IMG/VR virus record: IMGVR_UViG_3300018424_000338
Location: 1-20,389 of that record
Strand: one strand, 5' to 3'
Origin: a virus
DNA: 20,389 bases
Part shown: positions 1-19,393 of the stretch, piece by piece
Layout: every line of letters begins with the position of its first letter
Position numbering within the stretch: position 1 is the stretch's first letter
Program-made: the position numbers and the translations under genes
The notes under the pieces: model-generated
The model's input: only the letters and a program-made list of their open reading frames with translations
Database searches by the model: none
Told to the model about the DNA's origin: nothing

Positions 1-1435
1 CTTCAACACCTTCGTGACACTTAACCGCATACATCATGTGTGGAGTCTCTTCGCGACCAGCGAGATCAAACCAATCATGAACCTTATCGGCTTTGATTGA
101 ACAAGCAAAGGGACGGAACCATTCACGGCGCTTAACAGCATTGACGTGATCTTTGCCATCCTTAATCGTAGGATCAAAAAGGATAGAACGATTACCCAAA
201 GCGCGAGGACCGCCTTCTGAACGCCCTTGATACATGGTAACGATATTACCTTCACGAATCAATGAAGCCACATCATCGTAAGTAGCATCAGTTACATCAA
301 GACCCTCTAGACTTGCTTCATAACCAGAAGGATCATATTGAGGACCATAGTATACAGACTCTTGCTTGGAAGGTCCAGGATTTTCTGCATAAGCAGTGTT
401 CCAAATATACTTGGCACCACCAATAGATGTGCCGCCATCATGGGAGATGGGTTCGCAGTAGATGTTTAGGTCAGGGAAACGCTGCCAATACTTATAGTTA
501 GCAACACAATTCAAACCATAACCACCAGAGATAACAATGTTCTTTTCTCCAGTTAGTTCAGCTGCTTTCTCAATCAGCATACACATATTTTCAGAAGTTT
601 CTTCCTGAATCTTATATGCTAGATCTTTTTGGAGATCTGTAAATTCTCCTTCTCTGAAGTTTTTAACGTCTTCTTGAAAGATAGGATACCTAGCAACGTT
701 AATAGCTGCTGCATTAGGATATGTTGGAATGATCAAATCTCTATTACCCCAACCATCCCTAAAGAAAGGGGGTAGATCGTCGTTAGGTTTACCATAAGGA
801 GCAAGACCCATAAGCTTTCCAGCTTCAATTGCTGGGAATCCGCAATATTGAGTAACTGCCTCATACATCTTGGTTTGACCAGGATATTCCGTCAAGAAAA
901 TTTCATCATCATCGGATTGCATACCAATAGCAGCTTTAGTTCCTACGTGCTTATAAACAGTCTCGAATTCATTTGGATAACCTGCTTTGAAAATAGTTTC
1001 AAATTCAAATCCAAGTTCCGTTGCTCCTGCTTCACCATGCAACTGAAGGAAACTTCCTGCGCCATCAGCTACAACACAAGCAGCAGTTTCAAATCCAGAA
1101 TTGTAGAAACCCGCAGCTGCGTGTAATTGATGGTGCTGAACATCAATAAAAGTAGTTTCAAACTCAAACTTCTTTCTGGCAAGTTTTCTGACCCATCCTT
1201 GATACAAGTCTTCCCCACACCAATCTAGTTGAGGACCGTCACGGTGTGTATGGCAAACTACTAGATGATCAATATGATCAACATAATCAAATGCTTTTAA
1301 GATTCCCGCAATAGGAGAACCGTCATACTTATTTCTTGTTAGACGTTCTTCTTCAAGATAAAAAACAATTTCTCCATCCACAAGAAGTGTGGTGCTGCTG
1401 TTATGACCGCGAGCAACTGATAAAATATTTGTCAT
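1..1435 (-). CDS. Carbamoyltransferase (NodU/CmcH family), 3' end cut by window edge
   Basis: Open from ATG at 1435 to the left edge, giving 478 residues without a stop. Family enzymes transfer a carbamoyl group from carbamoyl phosphate to a hydroxyl of a sugar or antibiotic through a Kae1-like ATP-binding domain. Motifs visible: HNSS (11-14), the His-rich HHQLHAAAGFY (101-111), DGAG (124-127), MGLAPYG (209-215), GGYGLNCVANYK (304-315), EGGPRALGNRSILF (407-420) and REWFRPFA (437-444). All the family's main motifs are present, so it looks functional; family members usually run 50-130 residues longer, which fits the missing end. The start follows the glycosyltransferase stop by 4 bases, with AAAGG about 10 bases upstream inside that gene's last codons, so the two are probably cotranscribed. 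The substrate cannot be read from the sequence; a surface glycan of host or virion is an inference from the neighbours. Confidence 0.93.
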   Translation of the reverse strand, partial: MTNILSVARGHNSSTTLLVDGEIVFYLEEERLTRNKYDGSPIAGILKAFDYVDHIDHLVVCHTHRDGPQLDWCGEDLYQGWVRKLARKKFEFETTFIDVQHHQLHAAAGFYNSGFETAACVVADGAGSFLQLHGEAGATELGFEFETIFKAGYPNEFETVYKHVGTKAAIGMQSDDDEIFLTEYPGQTKMYEAVTQYCGFPAIEAGKLMGLAPYGKPNDDLPPFFRDGWGNRDLIIPTYPNAAAINVARYPIFQEDVKNFREGEFTDLQKDLAYKIQEETSENMCMLIEKAAELTGEKNIVISGGYGLNCVANYKYWQRFPDLNIYCEPISHDGGTSIGGAKYIWNTAYAENPGPSKQESVYYGPQYDPSGYEASLEGLDVTDATYDDVASLIREGNIVTMYQGRSEGGPRALGNRSILFDPTIKDGKDHVNAVKRREWFRPFACSIKADKVHDWFDLAGREETPHMMYAVKCHEGVE

Positions 1436-2676: not shown

Positions 2677-3429
2677 TCACTCTGCTTCTTCTTCTTCTAC
2701 TGCAGGTTCTTCAGAGGGTGGAAAAAGAATGGTTTCATCTAGCGTTGGAAACTTGACCATCAACCAATGAATTCCAGCAAACTTGGTGGGTGCTGCATCA
2801 CATTCTGCAATGAATCTGTCCAATTCTGCTTCTGCATCGGCATCCCAAGTACGTGATGCTTTCAACTCAACAGCAATTCGTTTTTGACCTTCTAGCATCG
2901 CCATATGACGCTCTTCCGTGCAATATGGTGGCTGGAAAGGTACATTTTCAAAAGACCAAGTTTCCGTTTCAAAGTCATATGTGATTCCCTGGTACACATC
3001 AAGAGAATCTGTAATGGGAAGAGGATCTGGATCTACATGATAAACTTCACCTGCATTTGGGTGACCTTCTGGGAAAGCATATTCCTTATTAGGCCAATCA
3101 CTAATATCAACGCCTTGCATAACAGCGGCAATTGCAGTCTCTTCATTGCTTCTAGCAGCATCCACTTTAACAAGTTGTTCTGATGGATCGCATCTAGTTC
3201 CAAGTGATTCTTCTAAATGTGCAGCACATTCTTCTTCACTCATTGATGCGCTGCTGAAGATTGGGTGGAAAGATTCATCAAAAATTAACTCCCCAGTTTC
3301 CTTTTTTACAAATACATAACCTTCTTTAGGTCCTGTGTACATAGCAGATGCAGTTTTCTGCTGTTCCCACGTATTGCCAAAATAGGTGTCAGGTAATTTA
3401 TAAGTATATTGCTTGGTAATTTCAGCCAT
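2677..3429 (-). CDS. Hypothetical acidic protein, 250 aa
   Basis: I do not recognise a family. The protein is soluble-looking, with no signal peptide or membrane segment. It has an acidic, Glu-rich C-terminus (last 15 residues), a central Trp/Tyr-containing stretch (ITYDFETETWSFENVPFQ) and a helical segment near residues 175-212 with many Ala, Glu and Asp. The start at 3429 is well supported: AAGGAAG lies 6 bases upstream and a perfect late promoter 22 bases upstream. It is the last gene before a terminator and follows the three Gly/Cys-rich proteins. Small genes next to phage adhesins are sometimes fibre-assembly chaperones, and the YDFETETW-plus-helix layout is reminiscent of tail fibre assembly proteins, but this is only a guess from position and composition. 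Confidence 0.8.
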   Translation of the reverse strand: MAEITKQYTYKLPDTYFGNTWEQQKTASAMYTGPKEGYVFVKKETGELIFDESFHPIFSSASMSEEECAAHLEESLGTRCDPSEQLVKVDAARSNEETAIAAVMQGVDISDWPNKEYAFPEGHPNAGEVYHVDPDPLPITDSLDVYQGITYDFETETWSFENVPFQPPYCTEERHMAMLEGQKRIAVELKASRTWDADAEAELDRFIAECDAAPTKFAGIHWLMVKFPTLDETILFPPSEEPAVEEEEAE

Positions 3430-3565: not shown

Positions 3566-4528
3566 TTATTTCCAACTAATACGAACCATTCCAGGGCTTC
3601 CAGGTGATCCGCAACGAATATCAGTATCACAAGCATATGCAGTAGATCCACCCATGCCAGGAACGTAAGCAGTGCAGTAACTACCACCAACACCAACTTG
3701 AGACATTGCTCTAGCTTGCTCACAAGCACCGCAGTTTTTACCACCACATGATTGACCGATGTGAATCCATCCACCTCTAGAGTTCATTAGACCACCAGGA
3801 TAAGGAATTCCCCACTGGTTACAGCATCTCTCATCCTGTCTTCTTGGCATATAGTAACCAGGAAGACCATAGGAACCATAATCAGCACCATAAAACAATG
3901 CACAACATCCTGCTTCGCATGTTCCGCAAAGATATCTACCCCAAATATTTTTACCGTCATTACAGCAACCATAGCAATAAGAACCATTGCCGCCATGTCC
4001 ACCTTCAGCACAGAAATCAAAACCACAATTAGCAACAGAAGCTAGATTATGACCAATTACATAAGTCTTGCAACCTCTTCTTCCTGAACAAGAAGAAGCT
4101 CTGTCAGATAAACCAGCAACACAAACTTGATACTTACAACCTGGGACTACCTCGGCACCACACAAACGCTTATACGCATAAGCACCAGAACCACCTGGAG
4201 GACCAACGTGACAGCAGCAGTTGCCACCACCTGCTCCACCACCACCCCAGAGTTCGAAGATAACGTCAGAAGCTCCAGTGGGAATTTCCCAGTCTTGGTA
4301 ATATGTATTGTGATGAGCGTCTCTGCCGTCTCCTGGGTGGGTACTTAATGTTGAATTGAGGCTGCCACCAGTAGCAGTGATATAAATCGTGCTATATCCT
4401 TCTAGAGGATATTGTGGTAGAAGGTCTGTAATAACTTCATCACCGACTTTAACTTCTTTATCAGAAGCCGCTCCCGATGTTTGTGCTGTTACTTTCTTAC
4501 CAAGTAAATTCCTTAAATTAGTTGCCAT
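3566..4528 (-). CDS. Gly/Cys-rich putative tail adhesin (paralogue 3), 320 aa
   Basis: This belongs with the next two genes upstream. It opens with the shared NLRNLLG (4-10), has a variable N-terminal region to about 85, then FELWGGGGAGGG (91-102), a conserved CAEGGHGG (173-180), further Gly runs, and ends in PGMVRISWK. I count 25 cysteines (about 8%), including NCCC, YCYGCC and GCC clusters. The hydrophobic-strand-plus-WGGGG layout and final beta strand resemble glycine-rich domains of phage tail fibre tips such as the polyglycine adhesins of T4-like phages. An adhesin role is inferred; Cys enrichment is not part of that known family. AGGAC lies before the ATG and a CTAAATA promoter candidate 23 bases upstream. 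No signal peptide. The 46-aa ORF follows after 3 bases. Confidence 0.88.
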   Translation of the reverse strand: MATNLRNLLGKKVTAQTSGAASDKEVKVGDEVITDLLPQYPLEGYSTIYITATGGSLNSTLSTHPGDGRDAHHNTYYQDWEIPTGASDVIFELWGGGGAGGGNCCCHVGPPGGSGAYAYKRLCGAEVVPGCKYQVCVAGLSDRASSCSGRRGCKTYVIGHNLASVANCGFDFCAEGGHGGNGSYCYGCCNDGKNIWGRYLCGTCEAGCCALFYGADYGSYGLPGYYMPRRQDERCCNQWGIPYPGGLMNSRGGWIHIGQSCGGKNCGACEQARAMSQVGVGGSYCTAYVPGMGGSTAYACDTDIRCGSPGSPGMVRISWK

Positions 4529-4550
4529 TGGTTTATAGTCCTATTGGTAG

Positions 4551-4557
4551 TATTTAG
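4551..4557 (-). promoter_or_regulatory. Candidate late promoter, CTAAATA variant
   Basis: Minus-strand CTAAATA ends 23 bases upstream of the 320-aa gene, just past the stop of the 331-aa gene, the same placement as the perfect late promoters in this window. It would give this third paralogue expression independent of the two before it. Confidence 0.45.
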
Positions 4558-4561
4558 AATA

Positions 4562-5557
4562 TCAGTTACACATGTATGCAGCGTGGAGACAATCTGCCAT
4601 GCCTGTGCAAATATTCAGTGCAGCGCAATAGCATCCGCAACGTTCGCCTTGATAAGTAATTCGTATCATACCAGCAGAAGATGGAGAACCATGAACACAG
4701 CAAGAAGCGCAAGACAGTGTTGCTGGGTAAGGCATTGGGTGTGAAGACCATCCCCTCTCATGAGGAGCCGCCTGTTGGAAACCAGGAAGACCAACAAAAG
4801 ATGCTGTAGCATTTCTCATGTGAGCATAAGCACATGTTTGAGTCGTGCAATGCTTAAATGTTACCCAAGCTTCAGCACCAGTGTGTGCCATATATGGAGG
4901 AACAGGAATGTGTTGATACAGTGCTTTCTGACATGAGCAATGGTATCTAAAGTATCCTGTTCTACCACAGATGTTGATGTCGCCACCATATCCAGGAGGT
5001 CCAAACTCTACGCAGTTGTCTGGGGCAGCAACATTGTCAAACAACACAATTCTATTTTGTCCGAAGTAGTTATTATCAGGACCCGCTGCTTGGATTAAAT
5101 TGCAGATAGCACATCCACCATACCCACCTTCAGCACAAATCCTTACATTTGGTCCACATACTGTACTCCAACATCCTCTACAACCTCTCTTATCAGTAAT
5201 AGAATCACTTCTACCCATCACTTTACCAATACAGAGACAATAGCAGTTTCCACCAAGAGTGCCACATATTGTTTTACGAACATATGCTCCAGTAGTTGGG
5301 ATGGTAGATACTGCACAGCAACAAGCTGAAGCAGCTCCACCTGCTCCGCCCCAGACTTCAAAAGTAATTCGGCAAGTGCCACAAGGAGCACACCATGTGT
5401 GTCTCCTTTGAGCATTCCAACCGCAGTCATAATTACAACAGTCTTTATCGTATGTAAAAGTAATTACTTTTCCATCCGCTAATGGGCTAGGAACTTGTCC
5501 GTAAATACCTAGATCTGATTTGTGATCTGTTCCTAATAGGTTTCTTAAACTGCTCAT
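4562..5557 (-). CDS. Gly/Cys-rich putative tail adhesin (paralogue 2), 331 aa
   Basis: Begins MSSLRNLLG like its neighbour upstream. FEVWGGAGG (66-74) and CAEGGYGG (141-148) align with paralogue 3, and FGPPGYGGD and AGMIRITYQ mark the later Gly region and closing strand. I count 34 cysteines (about 10%), in groups such as DCC, WCAPC, ACCC and NCYCLC. Unlike its relatives it continues past the closing strand with a Cys-studded tail of about 27 residues (CGCYC, then single Cys to the end), a possible extra disulphide or metal-binding cap. It starts 24 bases after the previous stop with only a weak Shine-Dalgarno (GGAC about 12 bases upstream), so translation may depend on the upstream gene. Adhesin function is inferred from the Gly-rich architecture and fibre context. 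Confidence 0.88.
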   Translation of the reverse strand: MSSLRNLLGTDHKSDLGIYGQVPSPLADGKVITFTYDKDCCNYDCGWNAQRRHTWCAPCGTCRITFEVWGGAGGAASACCCAVSTIPTTGAYVRKTICGTLGGNCYCLCIGKVMGRSDSITDKRGCRGCWSTVCGPNVRICAEGGYGGCAICNLIQAAGPDNNYFGQNRIVLFDNVAAPDNCVEFGPPGYGGDINICGRTGYFRYHCSCQKALYQHIPVPPYMAHTGAEAWVTFKHCTTQTCAYAHMRNATASFVGLPGFQQAAPHERGWSSHPMPYPATLSCASCCVHGSPSSAGMIRITYQGERCGCYCAALNICTGMADCLHAAYMCN

Positions 5558-5581
5558 CTTTTTAAGTGTCCGTAAAGTGTA

Positions 5582-6628
5582 TCAAGAGGCTGAAGTATCT
5601 GGATATAATGTAAGTCTAATACCGCCGCCAGCACCAGGACCACCACAACGACAGCAACTATCAGCACCGCCATTTCCTGGTGCTGTGCCACCAGAACCAA
5701 TTGGTCCCATGTACTGTTCGGAAGTACCACCTGGGTAATATCCTGGTCTGTGGGATAACTGGTGAACAAAACAGTCCCAGCAGGAGCAGCAGCATTCGGT
5801 GTTGCCAAGTTGAACTTGCTGACCACCATGAGTAGAATTCAGACCAGCTGGGTATGGAGTGTACCAAGCCCAATTGCAAGAATTTCTTCCTTCACCGCCA
5901 CTATCGTGGCGAACATTCGTTGAACCAACAGGGGGGTGATAGCAGCAACCACATCCAGGAACAGTAGTATTTCTGCCATCTCCTCCACAGCACTTCTGAA
6001 TTTCGCACCAATTTCTAGGATATCCTTCGGAAGCTCTGCTGTAACCATGGAATGATTGTGCTTGGTGGTTACATTCGTTAAAGGGGTAGAGGGTGTTATT
6101 TTTACAGTGATACATCAGGTTATAATCATAACACATACAAGCACCGCAGTGTAGACCACCACAACCACCACGAGAACACATAGTAAAGTTATTTTCTGTG
6201 CAGAAGTAACTCCAGCAACCAGTACAACCACCGTTACAGCTGGCACAGCAACGTGGTAATGCTGCTACCATCTGGATACACATTCCATCAAAGTATCCAG
6301 TTTCTCTACCAGCCCAATTACCAGCACAGATAGTACGTGACTTATATTCACCAGAAGCGCCTGGCCAGGTTACCGAACGACATCTCCAGTTACTAGACAT
6401 CCCCCCAGCACCCCAGAGTTCGATCTTCATTCTACAAATATTGAGGCCATCTGGAACACACCAGCATGTGCAATGCCAATGACGATTGAATGAGTCGTCG
6501 TTAACACAACCGAAACCACAGTGACTGCCTCTCCAGACCCACTGATAACCGTCGTCACCCATGTATGTTGGTACTCTCCTGATATCAGCCTCATCTGGCT
6601 TATCAAGGAGATTTCTTAAACTAGACAT
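5582..6628 (-). CDS. Gly/Cys-rich putative tail adhesin (paralogue 1), 348 aa
   Basis: First and most Cys-rich of three tandem relatives: I count 37 cysteines (about 10.6%), with HCTCWC, RCCASC, GCGCC and ECCCSC clusters. MSSLRNLL opens the protein, IELWGAGG (69-76) and CSRGGCGG (151-158) match the two relatives with near-identical spacing, and the C-terminus GPGAGGGIRLTLY is again a Gly run plus beta strand. Also unusually rich in Trp, Tyr and His, as expected of a surface-binding tip. A strong AAGGAG lies before the ATG at 6628. It follows the 111-aa gene by 19 bases without a clear late promoter, so it is probably read from the promoter at 7010-7017. No signal peptide or membrane segment. 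Receptor-binding function is inferred. Confidence 0.88.
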   Translation of the reverse strand: MSSLRNLLDKPDEADIRRVPTYMGDDGYQWVWRGSHCGFGCVNDDSFNRHWHCTCWCVPDGLNICRMKIELWGAGGMSSNWRCRSVTWPGASGEYKSRTICAGNWAGRETGYFDGMCIQMVAALPRCCASCNGGCTGCWSYFCTENNFTMCSRGGCGGLHCGACMCYDYNLMYHCKNNTLYPFNECNHQAQSFHGYSRASEGYPRNWCEIQKCCGGDGRNTTVPGCGCCYHPPVGSTNVRHDSGGEGRNSCNWAWYTPYPAGLNSTHGGQQVQLGNTECCCSCWDCFVHQLSHRPGYYPGGTSEQYMGPIGSGGTAPGNGGADSCCRCGGPGAGGGIRLTLYPDTSAS

Positions 6629-6647: not shown

Positions 6648-6983
6648 TCAGTTTGATAGAATAGACCAGCCGTATGACGAACCCGAATAAATTAATTCTA
6701 GTGAGTTATTGCTGATATCAAAATCTAGATCATCTGCAATGTTGGCAATCTTGTTGCCATTTCTTGCAATGATTGCCTTAACAGTGCTACAGTTACCTGC
6801 AGAATCAATAAGATTAATACGATCTCCAATAGCTGGGTTAGCTGGTAATGTAACTGTTAGTTCCGCTCCGTTAGTAGCAGTATCGATAAAGATAATGTCA
6901 CTAGCGTTTGCAGTGAGTGAAGTGGTAGCGGTTCTGGTCGCTCCGCCAGCAGCGCCTGCTGGTGCTGTTAATACTCTTCCCAT
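6648..6983 (-). CDS. Small virion/fibre tip protein with beta capping domain, 111 aa
   Basis: Residues 1-30 are Ala/Thr/Gly-rich. From about 40 on there is a compact beta domain: ELTVTLPANPAIGDRINLID, IIARNGNKIANIADDLDFDI, and a final ELIYSGSSYGWSIL. The pattern of TLP, GD, DSAG, ARNG and a closing GW is common in marine phage structural proteins and also occurs in the C-terminal half of the 152-aa protein at 11105-11563. Such domains often cap beta-helical fibres or sit at trimer ends; that role is inferred. The start at 6983 has AGGAGA about 11 bases upstream, and a GATAAATA late promoter lies 27 bases upstream, overlapping the previous stop. Confidence 0.85.
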   Translation of the reverse strand: MGRVLTAPAGAAGGATRTATTSLTANASDIIFIDTATNGAELTVTLPANPAIGDRINLIDSAGNCSTVKAIIARNGNKIANIADDLDFDISNNSLELIYSGSSYGWSILSN

Positions 6984-7009: not shown

Positions 7010-7017
7010 TATTTATC
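7010..7017 (-). promoter_or_regulatory. Late promoter, GATAAATA form
   Basis: The minus-strand octamer GATAAATA matches the NATAAATA form of the T4-type late promoter. It overlaps the TGA stop of the 106-aa gene and ends 27 bases upstream of the 111-aa gene's ATG. It probably also drives the first Gly/Cys-rich genes downstream. Confidence 0.65.
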
Positions 7018-7336
7018 AAGTAGTAGATTCTTCAACGCCGTAAACAGCGACACTTACATCTGCGGTGTCTGAATAGACTACAACTTTTTTGCCAGCTTGA
7101 AGAGCAAAACCTGTTCTTTCTAAAACACCCTTGGATGCAATTTCTGCATCGTACTCAACCCATTCTGCAACTAGAGGAGATGCATTCGCAGATAGTGCAA
7201 TCCTAACTGTAGAAGTAGCAGCACCGCGATTTACAATGTTTAAGTTTGCATATGCAACTGTGTCAGCAGGAACGGTGTATACCAGGGTATCAACACCTGC
7301 GGATGGATTTGATTGTCCTAAAATTCCAGAAGCCAT
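7016..7336 (-). CDS. Small virion structural protein, 106 aa
   Basis: An Ala/Val-rich all-beta protein. MASGILGQSNPSAG is followed by LVYTVPADTVAYANLNIVNRG and alternating strands, with VLERTGFALQAG and VVYSDTADVSVAVYGVE at the end. This pattern (TVPA...NIVNRG...EYD...LERTG..L.AGK..VVYS...V...VYG) is typical of small structural proteins found widely in marine T4-like and other tailed phages, probably tail or fibre associated. No enzyme motif, Cys or membrane segment. A GGAG lies before the ATG and a perfect TATAAATA 40 bases upstream gives it its own late transcription start right after the terminator of the 1098-aa gene. Confidence 0.85.
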   Translation of the reverse strand: MASGILGQSNPSAGVDTLVYTVPADTVAYANLNIVNRGAATSTVRIALSANASPLVAEWVEYDAEIASKGVLERTGFALQAGKKVVVYSDTADVSVAVYGVEESTT

Positions 7337-7425: not shown

Positions 7426-10400
7426 TCAGATAGCGCCTGCCCAGAATACGTATCCCTTCAGGTTTTTGACTTCTGTGTCTACGTATGTCTTAACTGCTTG
7501 CTCGGTTGGAACTTTCTCGTTACTGTTTCCAGAAAGAGTACCATCAGATGAGAATTCACTGATGATCTCACCGATTTGAGCACCGATAGAACCAAGTTGT
7601 AGTGAAGACAGACCAGACAGATCGAAGGAGGAAGCGTTTAGAGTTGTGCTACCAGTTGACTGGTTAACTCTGAAGTATTTACCAACCGAGAAGTTGCCAT
7701 CTTGGTCAGTAGAAACATAATAAACACGACCAGGAAGTTGTTCAGTAACTTCATTACCTGGAGCAGGTGATTGAATTGGCAGACCAGGGAAATTAGTTGT
7801 GGTCTTACCACCAGTACCAATATTCAGGAAGTCGTGACCAGTTAGTCTGACCTGTGAGTACAGATATCTAATCTTAAAGTTCTGACCATCATAAGAAGAT
7901 GTGGGCTTCTCTTCGGCTAAAGTAATAAGAACTTCACCATTAGGATCTTCAACAGAGCTAGATACTAACATGAACTCGGATTCAATTCTAATGTAGTCTC
8001 CTGAAACAATACTGTCTTCATTAAAGACTCTGATATCAGTTTGTGTGGCATCCAGATCACCAATAACTTGTGTTTGTGTTTGGTTAGAACCTGTAATAGC
8101 ACGAACAAGATCACCACCAGCGTGTGTAGTTGCTGTTGATGTTTCCACGCCCCTAACAACATTAATAGAAGATGCTGATGGGAATGGTGTAGAAGCATCG
8201 ATCTGCATTACCTCATTACCTACGATGAGGAAAGATCCTGCAGTGAATGGACTAATAGTATCAACTTGAAGAACAGTGTCTACAGCGGAAACACTTGCCT
8301 GAAGAGTTGCCGATCCGCCAACGCTGTATCTAACAATATCAAGAAGACCATCATGAGTAACAGCAGTGGATCCTAAAGATCCTCTGGTTACAACCAAATC
8401 CCCCTTACCATCGGGTGGGGTGTATGAAGAGTTAGTGACAACATAAGTAAACTGATCAGCACCAAGGTTTCCTGGACCAGTTACAAATTCAATCGAACCA
8501 CCTGGCTTGGGAGCAGCAGAAAGATCTCTAACAACAAGAGCAAATCCCTTCATACCACTTTCGAAGTCAGCATTACTTACAAGCGATGCTGATGTGAGTG
8601 ACTGATTTCCGTTAATAGTTTCACCAAGAGTGAAATCACCCTTAAGTTTTCTAACGAGAACTTTGTTTGCCGAGTTTTGAGAAGAAAGAACTTCAGCAAT
8701 CGCTCCAGATACAGCACCAATGACTCTTTCGCCGTTGGTGAAAGCAGCTAGAGATCCGCCAGGAGATAGGTTTGTACCCTCAACATAGTTGAGTTCTACA
8801 CCATCGATTCTGCCATCAATAGTTGCCTCATCAGCGTTGAAACCAGAAGAAATAATACCGTAAGTACCCCAAGAAGAGTTACCAGCAAGAGATCTGATAT
8901 TACCACCGCGAGTAGCAACATATGATGCATGTGCGTAGTAAGTGAAACAAGAAACGATTTCAGAGTTACCGTTATTTGTTACGAAGAAACCAACACCAGA
9001 TTGTCCTCCAGAACCTTCATGAATTTGAGTAAAGGAGTCAAATAGCATTGACTTGTTTGAAGGAGTTCCAGTTCCATCCCATTTCTCATGAACCTTACCA
9101 TCAACAATAGCACCTACACCAGTCTGCGAGAATGCAGAACACTGTGAGATATAAGGTGACTTGGTTGTTGGGGAGTTTGGATTGAGGCGAAGGAAAGTTC
9201 CTTTGATTGTTGCTGTATTGAGATCTTTGGGATCGGTCAGAGATTTTTCAAATCCAGCCATGCCATCCATAACTAGATCCTTGAGCATTGTCTTATTGCT
9301 CATGAAGAACATAGTGGTTTCTTCATTATTAATCGCTGCTACAGAAGTTACAGAAGCTGTTCCTCCAGAGTGGGGGAAAACACTTGAATTACTCCAAGTA
9401 CCAGAAGTAGGTAGAATTTGAAGAACAGTTACTCCACCAACAGTTCTATGACCATAGATAACGCCAGTAGCATTGCCTCCTTGAGCAGTCTCGCCATCTA
9501 CAATATCATCTTCATCAATTAATGCATTTAATGTTACATCAAGCATAGAACTGGCTTGACCAGTATTGGGTTTAATAACACTAGTTCTGATGTTATCACC
9601 GATAATAGATACGTTTTCTGGAACAATAATAGGTAGAGTCTCGAAATAAGTGCCAGCCTTAACATAGATTGATGCTGGACCTGTAATATTATCACATGCA
9701 TAACGCAGCGAAGCGAATGCTCTAGAGATATTTTCGCCAGTATTGGTGTCACTACCTTCAGTTGTAACGTAGTAAACAGGGTCGGTTACATTGTTATTTT
9801 CCCAAACAGGAACTCCATTTCCATCTACTGTGAGGACCTGACCGTCTGTTCCAATTGGAAGACGAGCAGCACCAGCACCAGAACGATAAAGAATATCACC
9901 AGTTGTTGTCAGAACATTAGACTGGGCACCTTCTGCGAGAGTATTCCAATATGTACCAGTTGCATCAGTCTCTGGTGTTTGGTTTGTAGATTCTGAAACA
10001 GCGATGTAAGAGTTGCTATTACGTACAACAGCATCACCTGCATAATAGGTAGTACCAGAATCCCAAGTTCCTTGCCAAGTGAAACCACCAACAATGAAGT
10101 CCCAATCAGTTGGATTGCTTGATGGAATTGAACCAGAATTAGTAGTTTTTGATACGTAAGAATTACCACCAAGAAGAACAACGTCTCCTTGCTTATAGTC
10201 TGTTCCTGCGTCCCAATCTCCAACTACTTTAAATCCAGTAGTTACAATTTCCCAATCAGTTAGAGTGTTGGGAGTAGATCCTGTGTGAATTGAAGTAGCA
10301 ACGTAAGTATAACCACCGTAGGAAACAATATCTCCTGGTTGATACTCGGTAGCAATATTCCATGTATCTTCGAATACTAGACCAGAAACAAATAATTCGA

Positions 10401-10722
10401 AGTTTGCTGGATCGAATGCACCTGTAGAGGTGTGAGCGATAGTTGTTCTGTACTGGTTATTGCCGTACTTGACAATATCGTTGAGCTTATACCAAGTGCT
10501 TGCTTGCCAATCACCTTTATTTTCGATACTTTCTGTATGAAGATTCCACTTGGTGGAGTCTCCACTGTAGAACATTGTTTCGTTCGATACAGAGGTGTGG
10601 TTAGCAACCGCTACGTAGGTGTTAGCACCATACTTTACGATATCGTCAACCTCGTAGGAAGTGGCTACCTGCCAATTTCCTCTCCAGTTAAACTTTAATC
10701 TACCTAATCTGAAATCAGCCAT
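7426..10722 (-). CDS. Large tail fibre: five W-repeats, beta-helix domain, fibre C-terminus (1098 aa)
   Basis: Five repeats of about 50 residues open the protein, each a W followed by Y-x(3)DxVxYGxxxY: W17 to T43, W72 to T98, W121 to G148, W170 to G197 and W220 to P250. They resemble chitin-binding type 5/12 carbohydrate modules. A fibre-type linker TTTGDILYRSGAGAARLP (272-289) is followed by VYYVTTEGSDTNTGENISRA (316-335), then YVKAGTYFETLPIIVPENVS (353-372), the usual opening of a pectate-lyase-like right-handed beta-helix found in phage tail proteins. The C-terminal end carries KVPTEQAVKTYVDTEV, a common fibre trimerisation-end motif, and closes in KGYVFWAGAI. Start at 10722 has AAGGAAG 10 bases upstream, 14 bases after the 123-aa gene stop. 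It is the last gene of an operon started at 11591-11598. Likely a long fibre or baseplate-attached adhesin. Confidence 0.92.
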   Translation of the reverse strand: MADFRLGRLKFNWRGNWQVATSYEVDDIVKYGANTYVAVANHTSVSNETMFYSGDSTKWNLHTESIENKGDWQASTWYKLNDIVKYGNNQYRTTIAHTSTGAFDPANFELFVSGLVFEDTWNIATEYQPGDIVSYGGYTYVATSIHTGSTPNTLTDWEIVTTGFKVVGDWDAGTDYKQGDVVLLGGNSYVSKTTNSGSIPSSNPTDWDFIVGGFTWQGTWDSGTTYYAGDAVVRNSNSYIAVSESTNQTPETDATGTYWNTLAEGAQSNVLTTTGDILYRSGAGAARLPIGTDGQVLTVDGNGVPVWENNNVTDPVYYVTTEGSDTNTGENISRAFASLRYACDNITGPASIYVKAGTYFETLPIIVPENVSIIGDNIRTSVIKPNTGQASSMLDVTLNALIDEDDIVDGETAQGGNATGVIYGHRTVGGVTVLQILPTSGTWSNSSVFPHSGGTASVTSVAAINNEETTMFFMSNKTMLKDLVMDGMAGFEKSLTDPKDLNTATIKGTFLRLNPNSPTTKSPYISQCSAFSQTGVGAIVDGKVHEKWDGTGTPSNKSMLFDSFTQIHEGSGGQSGVGFFVTNNGNSEIVSCFTYYAHASYVATRGGNIRSLAGNSSWGTYGIISSGFNADEATIDGRIDGVELNYVEGTNLSPGGSLAAFTNGERVIGAVSGAIAEVLSSQNSANKVLVRKLKGDFTLGETINGNQSLTSASLVSNADFESGMKGFALVVRDLSAAPKPGGSIEFVTGPGNLGADQFTYVVTNSSYTPPDGKGDLVVTRGSLGSTAVTHDGLLDIVRYSVGGSATLQASVSAVDTVLQVDTISPFTAGSFLIVGNEVMQIDASTPFPSASSINVVRGVETSTATTHAGGDLVRAITGSNQTQTQVIGDLDATQTDIRVFNEDSIVSGDYIRIESEFMLVSSSVEDPNGEVLITLAEEKPTSSYDGQNFKIRYLYSQVRLTGHDFLNIGTGGKTTTNFPGLPIQSPAPGNEVTEQLPGRVYYVSTDQDGNFSVGKYFRVNQSTGSTTLNASSFDLSGLSSLQLGSIGAQIGEIISEFSSDGTLSGNSNEKVPTEQAVKTYVDTEVKNLKGYVFWAGAI

Positions 10723-10736
10723 TGTTGTTTACTTCC

Positions 10737-11108
10737 TTAATTGGGACCTTCGGTGGTATAATCATAGGGTTCATTGAAACGAATTACAAAGTATCCGTCG
10801 TCATCAATAAAATAACTAATTTTTCTCTCGTCGAATCTAAACTGTTGATATCGATCGAGTGGATTGTTGTACAGAGACTTTTCTTCTGTCACTTCCTCTA
10901 CATAATCGTAAAGACCAGCAGCAATATCTAGGTATGGCGTACCATCTTTACGAGTAAAATCAGCCATTTCATCATCAATGGATCTGATTCTGGTATAAAT
11001 CAACATACCATCCTCATCCTTGCGGAGAGCATGTACATAAAAATCATTGCCCAATTCCGTTTCCGTAGAATCGGTTGGATTCATGATATCACTTAAATAC
11101 ATCGTCAT
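10737..11108 (-). CDS. Hypothetical protein, 123 aa
   Basis: No recognised family. Hydrophilic and acidic: LGNDFYVHALRKDEDGMLIYTRIRS in the first half (beta-rich), then YDYVEEVTEEKSLYNNPLDR and ISYFIDDDGYFVIRFNEPYDY. No Cys, signal peptide or membrane segment. The ATG at 11108 overlaps the stop of the 152-aa gene in an ATGA, indicating translational coupling; a second ATG two codons on is possible. Sandwiched between an Mtd-like protein and a long fibre and cotranscribed with both, it is probably a fibre or baseplate connector or assembly factor, but nothing in the sequence proves this. Confidence 0.85.
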   Translation of the reverse strand: MTMYLSDIMNPTDSTETELGNDFYVHALRKDEDGMLIYTRIRSIDDEMADFTRKDGTPYLDIAAGLYDYVEEVTEEKSLYNNPLDRYQQFRFDERKISYFIDDDGYFVIRFNEPYDYTTEGPN

Positions 11109-11563
11109 ACGACTACCCTCCAGTAAACTCCTTCCCAGATTAATTGTACCCTGGCACCTCTAACATCGAAAATTAGAGGAGAAGAGATCACATTATTTTC
11201 ATTAATAAATTGTCTTCCGTTAGTATCTACCAATGTGATATTATTTATATCCCAAGTAAATGCTGAATCGACGAATTCAACAGTGTCTCCAGGTCTAGGA
11301 ATCAACTGATTATTATAAGAAGGTAATGTAAGAGTGATGGGTCCACTGGAAGAATCTACGAGATATCTTAAATTCGTTCCAAGAAGAGTGTCCGAAGTAA
11401 TGAACTCCCATCTTGATCTTTGAACATCAAAACCGCCAGCGGTAGAGCCGTCATGGATGACAGCCATATTTTTGTCGGTATCAATAGTTAATTCACCTTC
11501 TGCTCCCGTGAAGAAAGCATGTTCAGCAGTAGTACCCCTTCTAAATTGTACCTGGGTAGTCAT
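11105..11563 (-). CDS. Tail fibre protein with Mtd-like N-terminus and beta capping domain, 152 aa
   Basis: Residues 5-45 (VQFRRGTTAEHAFFTGAEGE, then LTIDTDKNMAVIHDGSTAGG) match the N-terminal motif seen in many phage fibre and receptor-binding proteins, including the major tropism determinant type: QxRRGT...F.G..GE...DTD...VHDG...GG. Residues 70-152 form a second beta domain (ITLTLPSYNNQLIPRPGDTV, then FDVRGARVQLIWEGVYWRVV), the same kind as in the 111-aa protein. Short for a fibre, so probably an adaptor or tip. No obvious Shine-Dalgarno sequence precedes the ATG at 11563, but a perfect late promoter lies 28 bases upstream. First gene of a three-gene unit. Confidence 0.88.
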   Translation of the reverse strand: MTTQVQFRRGTTAEHAFFTGAEGELTIDTDKNMAVIHDGSTAGGFDVQRSRWEFITSDTLLGTNLRYLVDSSSGPITLTLPSYNNQLIPRPGDTVEFVDSAFTWDINNITLVDTNGRQFINENNVISSPLIFDVRGARVQLIWEGVYWRVVV

Positions 11564-11590
11564 TAGAATTAATTTTAAGGTTACTGATAG

Positions 11591-11598
11591 TATTTATA
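11591..11598 (-). promoter_or_regulatory. T4-type late promoter (TATAAATA) in an inverted repeat
   Basis: A perfect minus-strand TATAAATA lies 4 bases after the stop of the 2092-aa gene and 28 bases before the 152-aa gene. It is embedded in a short inverted repeat, ATAGTA-TAAA-TACTAT. It should drive the 152-aa, 123-aa and 1098-aa genes as a unit. Confidence 0.8.
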
Positions 11599-11601
11599 CT
11601 A

Positions 11602-14600
11602 TTAAATTATCCATCCATAAGTTCTTTCTGGAGCGACAGAAACCTTTCTGTCTGTGGAATTTCCGAATATTGTTAGTACACCTTCTCTGCTGACCCATAC
11701 TCCAAGTGGTCCAATTTCTTCGCCCTTTCCATATACGAAGATAGTACCAGAACCAGGGTTTGCTGGAGAAATATTGATGAAAGCATCGCCACTGATTGTT
11801 GCTTGACCAGTAGTTGTGTATGACTGTGTTCTGATAACTGCGACTTGACCATCGATATCGATTGTAACCTGACCAGTAAAGTCGCGAACATGAGAGTTTT
11901 CTGACTGACCAGAAATTGCTGTAGATCCAGATCCAGAGTATGCTCCTCTGCTGAACGCATTTGCAGACTCCCCAGAAATAGTTGCTGTTCCAGAAGCAAC
12001 TTCTGCTCTGGTAACTTTTCTTCTGGCAACACCATAGAACTCCCCGAAGATACCTGCGGTAACTGGGATTGTTCTTGCTTCCGCAGCACTGTCGAATAGA
12101 TATAGGTCTCCAGAACCAAAGTAATTTGCGGATAGTTTGACAACTGCTTCGCCAGTAATGGTGAGAATAGTTGTCTTTGCTGGAACAAGCTTGGTGAAGG
12201 ATTCTTCTGCGCCAATGAAGGAGTAAAGATTTCCAGAACCTTCGTAGTTTCTGACATGTACATCTTCGACTTGACCAGAAACAGTAAATGTTCCTGTGGT
12301 CTGATGAGCGAATGTTCTTCTCTCTTCCTTCGATACAAGACCAAATAGACTTCCAAATCCTTCGTATGGCAGTGAGAATGCTTCTGCTGCAGAACCAGTG
12401 AGACTGAAGATTCCTCCAGAGATTCCAACAACTGCTCTGGATTCCGCAGCACCAGAGAACTTCTTGAGCGAACCAGAACCAATTTTTGTGTATACCCAAA
12501 TTTGTCTGGTATCTGCAATACCATTGACATCGAAGAGAACTTGAAGATCGTCTGGACTTGCTGCGAATGCTTCCGCTGCTCCAGAGATTGTGGAAATAGA
12601 TCCTTCGCCAACGTGCAGCAAGGAAATTCTGACAACAGAATCTCCAGAAACAATTGCCGTACCACCATCAGAAACGTATTTCTTGACGACATATACTTTA
12701 ACATCTTCGCTGAAGATAGAAGCATTGACTGTCTTGACTTCGGATACTGCAGATCTGATTGTTGCAATTCCAGTGAAGTTGAAGAGTGCTGTATCTTCTG
12801 CTGGATTGAAGGTAGCCGACTCTGCTGCGCCAGAAAGTGTAGAGATAGATCCAGAACCAATATTGGTAATGGAGAAGTTGGTCTTTGCCTTGCCGAAGAT
12901 TTGTGCAGAACCAGATGCAGGATACTTCTTGATAACGTAAACTTTGACATCTTCGTTGAAGATAGAAGCATTGACTGTCTTAACTTCAGACTTGGTAGAC
13001 TTGACTGAAGTAATGCCGCCACCAATGGAGAATAGAAGTTCTCTTTCGTCTGGATTGACAGTAAGAGATTCTGCAGCACCACTAAATGTTCCGATAAGAA
13101 CATCGCCAACATAATCTGGAACAAATCTCTCACTTGCAGTTCCAGAGATAGCAATTTGTACTTCTGGTTGCTCTGCGAACGTGAGGAGTTCTGGAGCAGA
13201 AGATCCTCTGAATGTGAATAGAGATCCGAAGAACTCTTCCGCAACTGTTGTACGCTGACCACCAAGACCAGAGATTTCGAGATCTGCTTGGAATGCAGGA
13301 AGCTTTCTGGAAACTGCTTCGCCAGCAATACCACGCGAGAAGATATGTACCTGACCTGGATAGTTTGGTACATAATGAACTGGATCTGCCTGACCAGAAA
13401 TCTGTGCATGAACCGTTGGTTGCTCTGCAAATGTAAGTAGAGCAAAGCTGGATCTGACATCGCCACCAAGTTTGACGTTGGTTGTAATATCTGGTGGATT
13501 GATAACAAATGCTTCTGTTGCAGCACCAGAAAGTTGTAGATGTGCTCTGGTGAATGCTGGTAGATCGACAGTAATTGCCTCTCCAGAAATACCAGCAGCA
13601 AAGATCGTACCAGAACCAGTGTTGTTTGGTAGATAACTTTCGCCAAGTTGACCGAAGATCGAAATGGAACCAAATCCAGATTCTGCAAATACCAGAGTTG
13701 CTGGTCTTGGAATACCACCAAAGATAGATAGAGATCCAGTTCCTGTAGGAGCGGCAAATGTGAAACTCTTGTCCGCAACGCCAGTGACATCGAAGAGAAC
13801 TTGTAGATCGTCTGGGCTTGCTGCAAAAGATTCTGCTGCACCAGATAGAGTAGAGATAAATCCTTCGCCAGTGTAAGAAGGAGTGAATCTGTCCACTGCC
13901 TGACCAAAGATCTCGGCATTGGTGAAGAATGTTTCTGGGAAAGTTCTGATCGCAGGACTTGCCGTTCCTGTGATAGAAAGAGTTCCTCCTTCGACAACGG
14001 CAGTAATTGCTTTTCTTTCTTCTGCTGTACCAACGAAAGTGGCGAGAGTTGTCTGATCGGGTGGATTGACGACGAAGGCTTCTGCGGCACCAGATAGAGC
14101 AAATATATCTCCAGAACCAGTAAAGCTTGGAGTGAATCTATCAACAGCATTGCCGTCAATGCTAATAACACCACCAGGATTAATAGCACCTGTGAATGTG
14201 ATGTTGATGGCACCTCTGACTCTGATTGTTCCGAATGATTCCTCTGCGAACGTGAGGATAGGTTCGGAAACCTGACCAGTGATGTCAAACAGAACTTGTT
14301 TGTCTGGTGGATTTGCGATGAATCTTTCTGTCGCTTCGCCGTAAATTCTGAATTGACCTGTGCCACCATGCTTGTTTGGCAGAGCAACGCCAGCAGTTCC
14401 AATTGTAAAGAGAGAACCAGAACCAAAGTAGTTGATTCTGATAACAGGAACAACATCCTGACTGGATCCAGATACGATCTTGAATAGACCGAATGGATAA
14501 TTTGTAGTATGCTCGGTAATTGACTGCCAGTCGATAAGCTCGTCTTGCAGACTGATCCATCCCGTCTCGGGATAGTAAACATTGTTTAGATAACCATAAT

Positions 14601-17600
14601 CTTGTGTTGGATACTGTGCAACATTAGTCGCTCCAGAATCAGGAGCAGAAGCAATAGATCCAAGATCGGGTGTATCGAAGAAGTCAATCGAAGAATTGTT
14701 GTAAGAGTATACTCTTCTCTCTTCCTTACCAATGAAGGAGAACAAGTTACCATCAACAACTTCGGAGAAGGTTGCTTTCTCTGTAACAAGACCACCATCG
14801 ATATCGATCTCGATCGAACCGTTGTATCTTGGAATGAACGATGTAACCGCAACACCTCTGGTGGTAAACAGAATCTGCTCTTCTGGAGGATTGCCAATGA
14901 AGCTTTCTTCTGCTGCACCGAAGATTTCCAGATGTACATCGAAGATTTCTCTGACAGATGTAGAATCTGCAACTTCTCCATTGAACTCGAATAGAGTCTG
15001 GAATACTTCGTTGGAGATGAATCTTTCTTCCGCTGTACCAAGGATGCTGAATGATCCCTCGCCACTGAAGACAGGAGGAACAAATACAAATACATCGCCA
15101 AATGTAAATAGATCTCCAGATCCAATAAAATCTTTTGTTCTTGGTGTTTGTGCTTCGCCCTTGAGTGGGAAGATACCAAATGGATAGTTTGTAGCATGAC
15201 CAGTGATATACTCGTAATCGAGTAGAGTATCCTGCAGACTGATCCATCCAGTTTCTGGATAGTAAACGGTTTCGAGATATCCATGATCTTCGGTGTGTGT
15301 AGCAACCTGGGAGACATATCCATAATCTGGTGTCTCGAATAGATTGATCGAAGATGTGTTGTAATGGTATGTTCTTCTCTCTTCCTTGCTGACAAAGGAG
15401 AATAGATTGCCTTCGACAACCTCGGAGAATGTAGATCTCTCTGTAACAAGTCCACCATCGATATCGATGTGTGTAAATCCGTTGTAACGAGGGATAAACG
15501 ATGTAATTGTATCTCCACCGAAGGTGAAGAGAATTGGTCTCTCTGGTGGATTTGCAATAAAGCTTTCTTCTGCAGCACCATCGATATGCAATTCAATATC
15601 AAAGATTTCTCGGACAGAAGTGGAATCCGATGCAAATCCATTGAACTCAAACAGAGTCTGGAAGGATTCATCTGATACAAATCTCTCTTCTGCAGAACCA
15701 CGAATACTGAAGGATCCTTCGCCTTCGTGATATGGAGGAACGAAGACGTATACTTCGCCAAAGATTGAAATAGTACCAGAACCAACCCAGTTAGGCTGGA
15801 ATGCAATTTCGGTATTACTAGTGAGAGGTAGAATACCGAAGGGATAATTTGTAGCGTGATCAATAATGTACTGATAATCAAGTCTAGCGTCAGGAGTGCT
15901 AATCCATCCTGTCTCTGGATAATAGACTAGATCTAACGCACCATGATCAACTTCTTCTGTTGCTGCATTAGCAATGTATCCATAATCAGGACTTGTGAAG
16001 AAGTCAATAGAAGATGTGTTATAACTGTAAGTTCTTCTTTCTTCCTTACTGATGAAGGAGAACAGATTACCGCTAGCAACTTCGGAGAATGTAGATCTCT
16101 CGGCAGTAATTCCGCCCTCAATATCGAAGAGGACATTACCAAAGAACCTGGGAATGAAGCGTGTACTGGATGCTTGACTACCGAAGGCGATGGAAGTTCC
16201 TTGAACAGGATCTTTAATGATCGCAGATTCAGATGCAACGCCACCAAATTCGAGAAGAACTTGTTTCTCTTCTCCAGCATACTGAATAGATTCTGATCCA
16301 CCACCAAATCCAAATAGATTGCCACCACCAAAGATACCAACAGTGATGCCAATAACTGCTGTGCCATCGAGACTGATAGTACCAGCACCATAATGGTTTT
16401 GTGGACCTTTGGTGATTGCATTGCTGAATGCAAATAGTGTTCCAGAACCAATCCAATTTGGCTGGAACGAAATAGTCGTTTCGCTCTTGAGACGTAGTGT
16501 TCCAAATGGATAATCACTGAACGATACTACGTTCGCTAGATCTCCATAATCTAGTGGTTGGAATACATCGTCACCAGCAGCAGGAATTACCTTGCCATAG
16601 TCAACATTTGGTTCGGTAGCTGCAGAAGCAACACTCTGGTAGTCTTCCTTCTCGTATAGATATTCGCTGGATGTATTGTATGAGTATACATTCCTTTCTT
16701 GTAGACCAGCGATGGAGAACAGACTTCCCGATCCTTCCCATGCAAATGTCTTCGTGACATATTTGGTGCCGAAAGTAAATAGCGATCCTCCACCGAATGT
16801 GCGAAGAATGATACCAAGAGTGGCTTCTCCACTAATATTGAAGAGAGTCTTGCGTTGATCTCCAGGTCCTATAACACCGTATTCAATGCTCTGGAGACCA
16901 TAGTGGTCAAACTGATATCCACTATTACTTGCTTGGTAGATTGTGATCTCGGAGTTCTGTACTCTTGCTCCTTCAGGAACAGGAACAGTAACACTGTTTA
17001 GAGTATTGAAAGAAGTGTCGTTTTCAGCGACAATAATAGTATTTGGGAATCCAGTAAACTGAATTCTTAAATCTTCGCCGCCATCTGGTTCTTCACCACC
17101 ATTAAAACCATTGCCCTTAATGGCATTGACCGTTATTTCTTCTACTCCCTCTAAATTGAGGTAGAATCGTAAAGACCTAAATCCGCTTACATTAGTACCA
17201 AAGCGGATATGAGGACCAATGTTGAATCCACCTAGAGATCCTGTTCCAGAACCACCTGTAGAGTATGTGGTACGTGTGAACGTTGTATTTGGATCATTAT
17301 TAATGTCATCTGCAGTAACTTGAACAAAGTTACCGTAATCAGGCTGCTCGGGATAGACCGTAGCTTTTGCTTCGCCCGCAAAGGATCCACTGAATAGAGA
17401 TCCAGATCCATAGTATTTGGTGGAGAAGGCGGCGTTAGCAGCGCCTTGGAGGGTCCCGAGACCCTCCGTGTCGTATACAGATCCAAACGCCGCCAGAGCG
17501 GCACCTCGAATGGATACAGTGCCTGTGACAATCCATGGTGCTTGCAAGACGGTATACGCCTTACCAAGCTCGAATATTTGACCGCTACCAACGAATACCT

Positions 17601-17959: not shown

Positions 17960-19393
17960 TCAGTCGAGGCTGACGTTCAGAGTGACTTTGATTTGGTCAC
18001 CAGCGTTTTGGATGCTGTATGGTCCGTTTGTGAATCTTTCTGCGAAGAAGATTGAGTTGTAGATAGTAGCAACACCTGCTGCACCAGCACCACCGCCATC
18101 AAGAGCGGGTTCGCAAGTAAATTCATTAGCAGTTGCTGTATGAACGGTGTATGTTCCAGGAGTTGTGGTGTTGTTTGTAGTACCTTGATCGATATAAACA
18201 ACATCACCAACAACTAGACCATGACCAGTGAAGGTTACCTTGGAGAAGTCAAACTCAACTTCGTCGTTTCCAGATGCAGGAGCGATGTTCTCTAGAAGTA
18301 GGTTGTTGAGGTAAACATCAACAGTTCCATCTTCATCTTCGGTCTCTCTATCGATACCAATAATTACCGTGTTAGCATCGATAGCGTCAGGAGCACCACC
18401 AATAACACCAGCGGTTCCACTCTGGGAAACTGCCATGCCTTTTGCTAAATCTGCAGCAACTTCAACTCTAAAGTCTCCGTTACCACTGACAGCACCGCTA
18501 TTAGCTTTATCTAGGTAGATGGTAGTTCCTGCGATACCAGCAACTCTTGCGCCAGAAGCAATACCAGTGCCAGTTACTCTTTGACCAACAGCAATGCCAG
18601 TTGTAGCACCAACAGTGATTTCAAACTCGCCAGCAGTACCAGTAATGGTAGTGGTGTTAGTTACAGCAGCAAGAGTGATAATTGCAGTACCTTGGTTTCC
18701 GCGAACACCAGTCTTGGAAACAGTAGTAGCAGCCGTAATTTGAGCAGCATCCTGTACACCAGCAAGGGTAACAGGCATGTTGTTTGCGCGAGCAAGATAG
18801 TAACCGTAGATGTCACCAGCAGCACCAGAGAATTCGAAAGTTTGCTCTGGATAAGAAGCGGTGGTTCTACCCGCACCGAAAGATAGAGATTGAGCAGCGA
18901 ATGTACCTGCGTTCTTGACACTTAAGTTGAGAGTCGTACCGTCAATGTCAACAACATATGCACCAGTGCCAACAGTATTGACAGGACCAGTTACATAATC
19001 ACCTTTCTTGATGCCAGCATTGGAAGCAACAGTGATTAGGTATGTGCCAGTAGTACCGTCACCATTAACGGTAGTAACAGCAGAAGGTTCGGTTGCAATA
19101 GCCCAACGGTTGCCGTTTAGAAGGATACCATACTGTGAGCTATAGTCTTGATCAGTTCTGTTGTTGATTACTTGGTGGTAACCAGTGGTAGGTGCAGAAC
19201 CATATCCGATACCAAAAGGTGAGGTGCCGTTATAGGGTTCAAAATATCTTGTCTGTGAAGGTGTATCACTTTCTGCAGGATACGTGTCGGTGGAATATAA
19301 TTTAAGAATTAAGTTTCTGGGAATCGCCTGATTAGCATTCAGAAGATTACGCAGAGATTCAATTTCACCTTGATTGGTTACTAGCAATGCCAT
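17960..19393 (-). CDS. Modular virion/tail fibre protein, 477 aa
   Basis: The two ends look like one fibre-type protein: an N-terminal part (1-100, with SLRNLLNANQ at 13-22, ILKLYSTDTYPAES and FGIGYGSAP) and later YPEQTFEFSGAAGDIYGYYL (181-200) that joins in sense to IFFAERFTNGPYSIQNAGDQ (448-467) and IKVTLNVSLD. Between these are inserted Gly/Thr/Ala-rich beta modules: about 105-168 (YLITVASNAGIKKGDYVTG..VVDIDGTTLNLS), 248-300 (FEITVGATTGIAVGQRVTG..VAGIAGTTIYLD) and 380-430 (FTGHGLVVGDVVYID..TYTVHTA). They share the pattern G-x(2)VxG...G...V..I.GTTI.L. AGAGGAG precedes the ATG, and a perfect late promoter lies 39 bases upstream. It ends at its own terminator, fitting strong, independent expression. 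Probably a structural or receptor-contact protein. Confidence 0.9.
   Translation of the reverse strand: MALLVTNQGEIESLRNLLNANQAIPRNLILKLYSTDTYPAESDTPSQTRYFEPYNGTSPFGIGYGSAPTTGYHQVINNRTDQDYSSQYGILLNGNRWAIATEPSAVTTVNGDGTTGTYLITVASNAGIKKGDYVTGPVNTVGTGAYVVDIDGTTLNLSVKNAGTFAAQSLSFGAGRTTASYPEQTFEFSGAAGDIYGYYLARANNMPVTLAGVQDAAQITAATTVSKTGVRGNQGTAIITLAAVTNTTTITGTAGEFEITVGATTGIAVGQRVTGTGIASGARVAGIAGTTIYLDKANSGAVSGNGDFRVEVAADLAKGMAVSQSGTAGVIGGAPDAIDANTVIIGIDRETEDEDGTVDVYLNNLLLENIAPASGNDEVEFDFSKVTFTGHGLVVGDVVYIDQGTTNNTTTPGTYTVHTATANEFTCEPALDGGGAGAAGVATIYNSIFFAERFTNGPYSIQNAGDQIKVTLNVSLD

Follow-up and report, generated by a model that had tools for sequence, protein, structure and literature searches.

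Background

Attachment of sugars to cysteine is a feature of the S-glycosylated glycocins such as sublancin, which are small secreted peptides that bear one or two sugars. The sublancin prophage has been described (PMC6391423). Among enzymes of the GT9 type, the bacterial autotransporter heptosyltransferases (BAHTs) TibC and AAH modify serine in TibA and AIDA-I, use a catalytic aspartate (Asp-110) and possess a beta-barrel at the N-terminus as well as a four-cysteine iron finger (PMC4358343). A glycine-rich tail fibre is known from Pam3, whose gp24 has been described with its chaperone gp25 (PDB 7ypx and 7yfw); gp24 is the product of a single gene, forms a homotrimer and has a glycine-rich domain with 39% glycine, and the paper makes no mention of cysteine or disulphide (PMC9608196).

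Three tandem genes for cysteine-rich proteins

The window considered here, the whole stretch of 20,389 nt of viral DNA that was analysed, is a piece of the genome of a marine myophage of Synechococcus type, to which S-CAM1 and S-CAM3 are close. Three of its genes, all on the minus strand, stand in tandem and are transcribed in the order W1 (5582-6628; 348 aa with 37 cysteines, 10.6%), W2 (4562-5557; 331 aa with 34 cysteines, 10.3%) and W3 (3566-4528; 320 aa with 25 cysteines, 7.8%). Recounting in the window ORFs confirmed the three Gly/Cys-rich reading frames and the cysteine numbers given by a first-pass annotation, which had also rightly called this density unusual: nearby structural proteins of the window contain 0-3 cysteines (0-0.9%). 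The same annotation had listed shared motifs, and the LRNLL start, the WG core (IELWGAGG in W1, FEVWGGAGG in W2, FELWGGGG in W3) and the spacing from the core tryptophan to a C-x2-GG motif (79, 72 and 79 residues, respectively) all hold, except that the latter motif is not of the CAEGG type in W1, where it reads CSRGGCGG. A 477-aa structural protein (17960-19393, minus strand) carries SLRNLL near its N-terminus (ESLRNLLNANQ), which resembles the start of W1-W3 and is possibly a docking peptide shared with them.

All three proteins match phrog_4205 (E 2.6e-28 for W1, 3.6e-38 for W2 and 1.8e-56 for W3), and W3, the glycine-rich domain of which spans approximately residues 79-319, also passes Pfam PF21722 Gly_rich_2 (31.5 bits, cut-off 24.3), both families being annotated without function. 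The Pfam search of W1 and W2 gave no match, and their tie to Gly_rich_2 runs through phrog_4205 and paralogy only. The AlphaFold model of W3, of only moderate confidence (pLDDT 73.5, pTM 0.77), matched the Pam3 fibre 7ypx_A in Foldseek (E 2.6e-6, probability 1.00, TM 0.45/0.56); within this model, cysteines are not enriched inside or outside strands. Among solved structures, no useful relative by sequence was found for the trio or for the GT9 protein described below. W1-W3 are thus distant paralogues of the glycine-rich tail-fibre fold, in agreement with the first-pass description of diverged paralogues of the glycine-rich phage-adhesin type, and are very probably adhesins of the tail-fibre tip.

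Conservation and copy number of the trio

S-CAM1 and S-CAM3 carry the same three cysteine-rich genes in the same place, and the trio is also found in dozens of IMG/VR contigs. Exactly three tandem copies are present in 82 of 89 loci (the window, the S-CAM phages and contigs fetched from IMG/VR with the family); the remaining loci comprise five contig fragments with one or two copies, one locus with four and one with five. Clustering of the 89 loci at 85% identity gave 50 representative loci. In the clade of the window, the proteins of positions 1, 2 and 3 form separate clades, and outside it copies cluster with others from the same group of phages, which implies that trios arose repeatedly or were homogenised. 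The three diverged copies are no accident of one phage. P-SSM2 has only two cysteine-rich genes in its whole genome and many loci fetched with GT9 also have two, so that three copies are common and not required; L059, L054 and L171 encode four, five and six cysteine-rich proteins, respectively. These variants weaken the idea that an obligate trio proves a heterotrimer. That most phages have exactly three copies and others two would fit a tip built of several parts better than copies that serve as alternatives, as in the alternative receptor specificities that the first-pass annotation had suggested.

Between the window and its near relative L004, 36 of 37 cysteines are kept in W1, 33 of 34 in W2 and 23 of 25 in W3. 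Given this retention, the cysteine-poor neighbours, the phrog_4205 matches and the conserved trio, the cysteine loading of W1-W3 is not due to chance.

Gene neighbourhood

In the cassette, which is widespread among marine phages, a large CBM fibre is followed by two small proteins, these by the cysteine-rich genes, and these in turn by a chaperone-like gene, a GT9 gene and a carbamoyltransferase; in the window all are on the minus strand. The large CBM5/12-containing tail fibre (7426-10722; PF02839, E 5.3e-21; phrog_9851 tail fiber, 1691 bits) is a constant upstream neighbour, and the small fibre-associated proteins of 106 aa (7016-7336; phrog_11338 tail fiber, E 4.7e-12) and 111 aa (6648-6983; phrog_8859, E 7.6e-20, and weaker tail-fibre families) are syntenic in most related loci. 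Downstream of W3, a 250-aa protein (2677-3429; phrog_9740, E 3.3e-28) is the putative cognate tail-fibre assembly chaperone; its searches against Pfam and NCBIfam gave no match. Pfam PF16778 Phage_tail_APC is passed by the phrog_9740-type homologues of L063 and L060 and, in L082, where every cysteine-rich gene has a small gene after it, by two of these three small genes. In the window the chaperone-like gene is followed by the 382-aa GT9 heptosyltransferase-like enzyme (1440-2588; PF01075, 25.5 bits, cut-off 22) and by a NodU-type carbamoyltransferase truncated at the edge of the window (1-1435; PF16861, E 8.7e-26; PF02543, E 5.2e-20).

Further upstream, a 2092-aa cysteine-free protein (11602-17880, minus strand) is apparently made of short repeats and its other frames yield long spurious ORFs; cysteine-rich ORFs lying antisense or out of frame to it were rejected as artefacts. 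Genes resembling 2OG-Fe(II) oxygenases or prolyl hydroxylases occur near the trio in S-SSM7 and Sf-FS3 (L092, 11589-12248 and 15321-15788; L094, 12345-12977), one such stretch carrying the annotation minor coat protein, and S-SSM7 also has a tryptophan halogenase; these are possibly further modifying enzymes.

Downstream in L004, the best matches of three genes are heptose kinase, heptose-1-phosphate adenylyltransferase and ADP-heptose epimerase, all below the NCBI equivalog cut-offs. Of the GT9-bearing phages tested, the cyanophages have the adenylyltransferase and the Vibrio and Aeromonas phages lack it; the hosts of the latter make their own ADP-heptose. Heptose genes were rejected as a specific link to cysteine, being present in cyanophages without GT9 too. 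The heptose cluster of S-CAM3 (L002, 21025-21381) and P-SSM2 (L093, 16119-16475) includes a cupin annotated as 'cysteine dioxygenase', of which the L004 counterpart looks closer to a cupin of sugar pathways (weak WbuC match).

Cysteine enrichment tracks the GT9 gene

As an independent sample, we considered 78 phage ORFs from IMG/VR containing the WG(A/G)GGG motif. Their cysteine content is bimodal, with 68 ORFs at 0-3.2% and 10 at 7.6-11.2%, and all 10 cysteine-rich ORFs match the trio family. GT9 is found in seven of the nine records with cysteine-rich proteins, the other two ending shortly after the trio, and the approximately 67 records without such proteins gave one weak partial match (Fisher p ~1e-7, this match being counted). 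Two GT9 queries that are 28% identical to each other retrieve an identical set of 55 records out of 50,697 from phages.

In phages of Vibrio and Aeromonas and in other marine phages, relatives of GT9 adjoin cysteine-rich tail proteins that have no detectable similarity to the trio: proteins of 758 and 290 aa in marine virus AG-345-O18 (L096), of 559 aa in Aeromonas phage HJ05, of 760 aa in L175 and of 791 aa in L373, and those of the L230/L236/L241 group. The proteins beside GT9 in the Vibrio phages are coiled-coil tail proteins. The 758-aa protein of AG-345-O18 (10016-12292) has 73 cysteines and a start, MASGRLG, that resembles that of the small 106-aa gene. Distinct GT9 loci flanked on each side by 5 kb or more form a sample that is biased, part of it having been fetched with the trio; 93 of them have trio-family proteins, four have other cysteine-rich proteins and six have none at a threshold of 4%; of these six, L095 has a 41-cysteine tail protein and only L201 is without any cysteine-enriched candidate. 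The neighbours of the GT9 relatives in L374, L378, L211 and L221 are merely mildly enriched.

One Vibrio tail-protein family allows a matched comparison, as its members have 41-58 cysteines in phages with GT9 (D505, SBP1 and L175) and 1-9 in phages without it (D456, 168E36-1, 1.004.O, PG11 and 2.044.O), the cysteine sites of the former being mostly polar or small residues in the latter. GT9-less homologues of L230 and L373 were sought as further natural experiments and none was found. The cyanophage S-SM2 (whole genome) and the half of P-TIM68 that was searched contain heptose genes, no GT9 and no cysteine-rich tail protein. The carbamoyltransferase was rejected as the cysteine-linked enzyme, since none of the GT9-bearing phages of Vibrio and Aeromonas that were tested has it. 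A search for bacterial GT9 homologues gave three marine MAG contigs (L390-L392, labelled Euryarchaeota/Rhodobacteraceae) that are phage cassettes themselves, probably through binning errors. Because many GT9 loci share ancestry, the independent cases number about 5-7; with these and the matched comparison, the association is well supported, and a functional link between GT9 and the cysteines is likely. Literature searches on such an association found nothing, and the system is probably undescribed, as the first-pass annotation had suggested.

The GT9-like enzyme

The window protein matches the PF01075 profile and its model (pLDDT 86, pTM 0.81) has the GT-B fold. Foldseek matches of the model (E 3e-11 to 1e-8) are 3tov, a Veillonella GT9 (E 3.3e-11), WaaC (E 1.6e-9), WaaF and TibC (E 7.6e-9), ADP-heptose enzymes being among them, and the DS-x-G-x-H donor motif is invariant or nearly so in the homologues. 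The catalytic aspartate of the N-terminal G-D motif of GT9 enzymes, to which the BAHT Asp-110 also corresponds, is missing: the window protein has Arg14 where WaaC has Asp13 (TibC Asp110), in a register taken from an hhalign alignment of low probability but without gaps. At this position, 165 of 166 regex-scored homologues have arginine and one has lysine, and essentially all of 174, including the unscored full-length ones shown, have arginine. A BAHT-type N-terminal beta-barrel and four-cysteine iron finger were not seen in GT9, and with the GT9 motif beginning as early as residue 10, no barrel domain stands before it. The only cysteine column conserved at 90% or more is C224. The C-terminal tail of the window protein bears cysteines (CGPQGCGP), as do several distant GT9 tails (NPCCK, CCN, SCCSK).

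Judged from sequence, the change of aspartate to arginine could mean that the enzyme is inactive. Loss of the aspartate is also compatible with S-glycosylation, since a thiol acceptor depends less on help from a base than a hydroxyl does.

Possible roles of the cysteines

We propose that W1-W3 would be receptor-facing proteins of the tail-fibre tip with a fold like that of Pam3 gp24, folded with the aid of the adjacent chaperone-like protein, and that the GT9-like enzyme, the gene of which lies two genes further downstream, would use their cysteines as acceptors. The transfer of a sugar, most likely heptose from ADP-heptose, to the thiols would take place in the cytoplasm, ahead of assembly, and in cyanophages it may be followed by carbamoylation of this sugar by the NodU-type carbamoyltransferase. 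Dozens of S-linked sugars would thus cover the tips of the virion, either shielding them or contributing to the recognition of the receptor. Because cysteine richness, unrelated tail proteins included, is nearly confined to phages with GT9, the cysteines may well be points of sugar attachment and not ordinary disulphides. S-glycosylation is the most economical explanation, and we consider its chances about even; that the sugar is heptose is possible, with the chances lying somewhat against it. Counting against S-glycosylation are the possibly inactive enzyme, the GT9 relatives beside which cysteine is little enriched or not at all, the heptose genes of cyanophages that lack GT9 and the lack of a motif around the cysteines. 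In a broader form, in which a phage-specific, thiol-directed branch of GT9 would S-glycosylate (probably S-heptosylate) dozens of cysteines on unrelated adhesin folds and cysteine-rich tips would evolve as sugar-acceptor surfaces, a virion glycocalyx, the proposal falls just short of an even chance.

The main rival starts from disulphides or metal, which the first-pass annotation had suggested: the cysteines would become disulphide-bonded in oxygenated seawater once the host has lysed, or would bind metal, and so steady hypervariable loops and perhaps join the paralogues in one tip, the target of GT9 lying elsewhere. Cysteine and glycine are the residues most retained among trio orthologues, which fits disulphides or metal sites as well, and CCC and C-x2-C clusters occur, with Cys-Cys neighbours at twice the expected frequency; no sequence motif was found around the cysteines, only weak biases. 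However, many cysteine columns are occupied in few orthologues only, and the even numbers expected if all cysteines were paired within the chain were not found (80 odd and 73 even among 153 representatives), although intermolecular bonds could account for the latter. Moreover, the enrichment follows GT9 on unrelated sequences, coiled-coil repeats included, at positions held mostly by polar or small residues in GT9-less homologues. Modification sites therefore fit better, and disulphides, metal or cross-links as the purpose of the cysteines are less supported; we regard this rival as rather unlikely.

Two other explanations concern the enzyme itself. GT9 could be a true glycosyltransferase acting on Ser/Thr or on host LPS, the cysteines serving a separate purpose in the same phages, since GT9 enzymes normally build the LPS core or glycosylate serine (PMC4358343). 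The further sugar genes of S-CAM-type cassettes agree with this explanation, which nevertheless leaves unexplained why, on unrelated tail proteins, it should be cysteine that rises when GT9 is present. Neither the carbamoyltransferase nor the HldE-like gene is present in the tested GT9 phages of Vibrio and Aeromonas, leaving GT9 as the shared element, and marine Synechococcus LPS is reported to lack heptose; such a role appears improbable. More improbable still is a pseudoenzyme that acts as a thiol-protecting chaperone and holds the cysteine-rich nascent tip: arginine or lysine in place of the catalytic aspartate throughout, the cysteine motifs of some C-termini and the strict gene pairing would suit it, but a pure chaperone would not require the donor motif and most cyanophage cassettes already hold a separate chaperone-like gene.

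Comparison with known systems

The phage structural proteins in these genomes are nearly free of cysteine, whereas the trio tips contain about 10%. If S-glycosylation is correct, abundant marine phages would glycosylate their receptor-facing tips on cysteine by means of a new class of protein-modifying enzyme spanning cyanophages, Vibrio and Aeromonas phages, and the reading of host recognition from sequence would change.

With Pam3 the locus shares a glycine-rich distal domain, a nearby chaperone gene and the setting of a cyanophage myovirus, in addition to the match of the W3 model; unlike the single gp24 gene, it has three paralogues, 8-11% cysteine and a linked GT9. The enzyme resembles the LPS heptosyltransferases WaaC and WaaF in its PF01075 profile, GT-B fold and donor motif, but its catalytic aspartate is replaced by arginine and its gene lies in a phage tail operon. 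As with TibC and AAH, a GT9-type enzyme with a fold match to TibC stands beside an adhesin, which BAHTs hyperglycosylate; by contrast, the window enzyme has arginine for aspartate, a barrel and iron finger were not seen and the proposed acceptor is cysteine. Sublancin-type glycocins likewise are encoded by phage-borne genes and have sugar on cysteine, as proposed here, but they depend on another transferase family and bear one or two sugars, against the dozens proposed for these tips.
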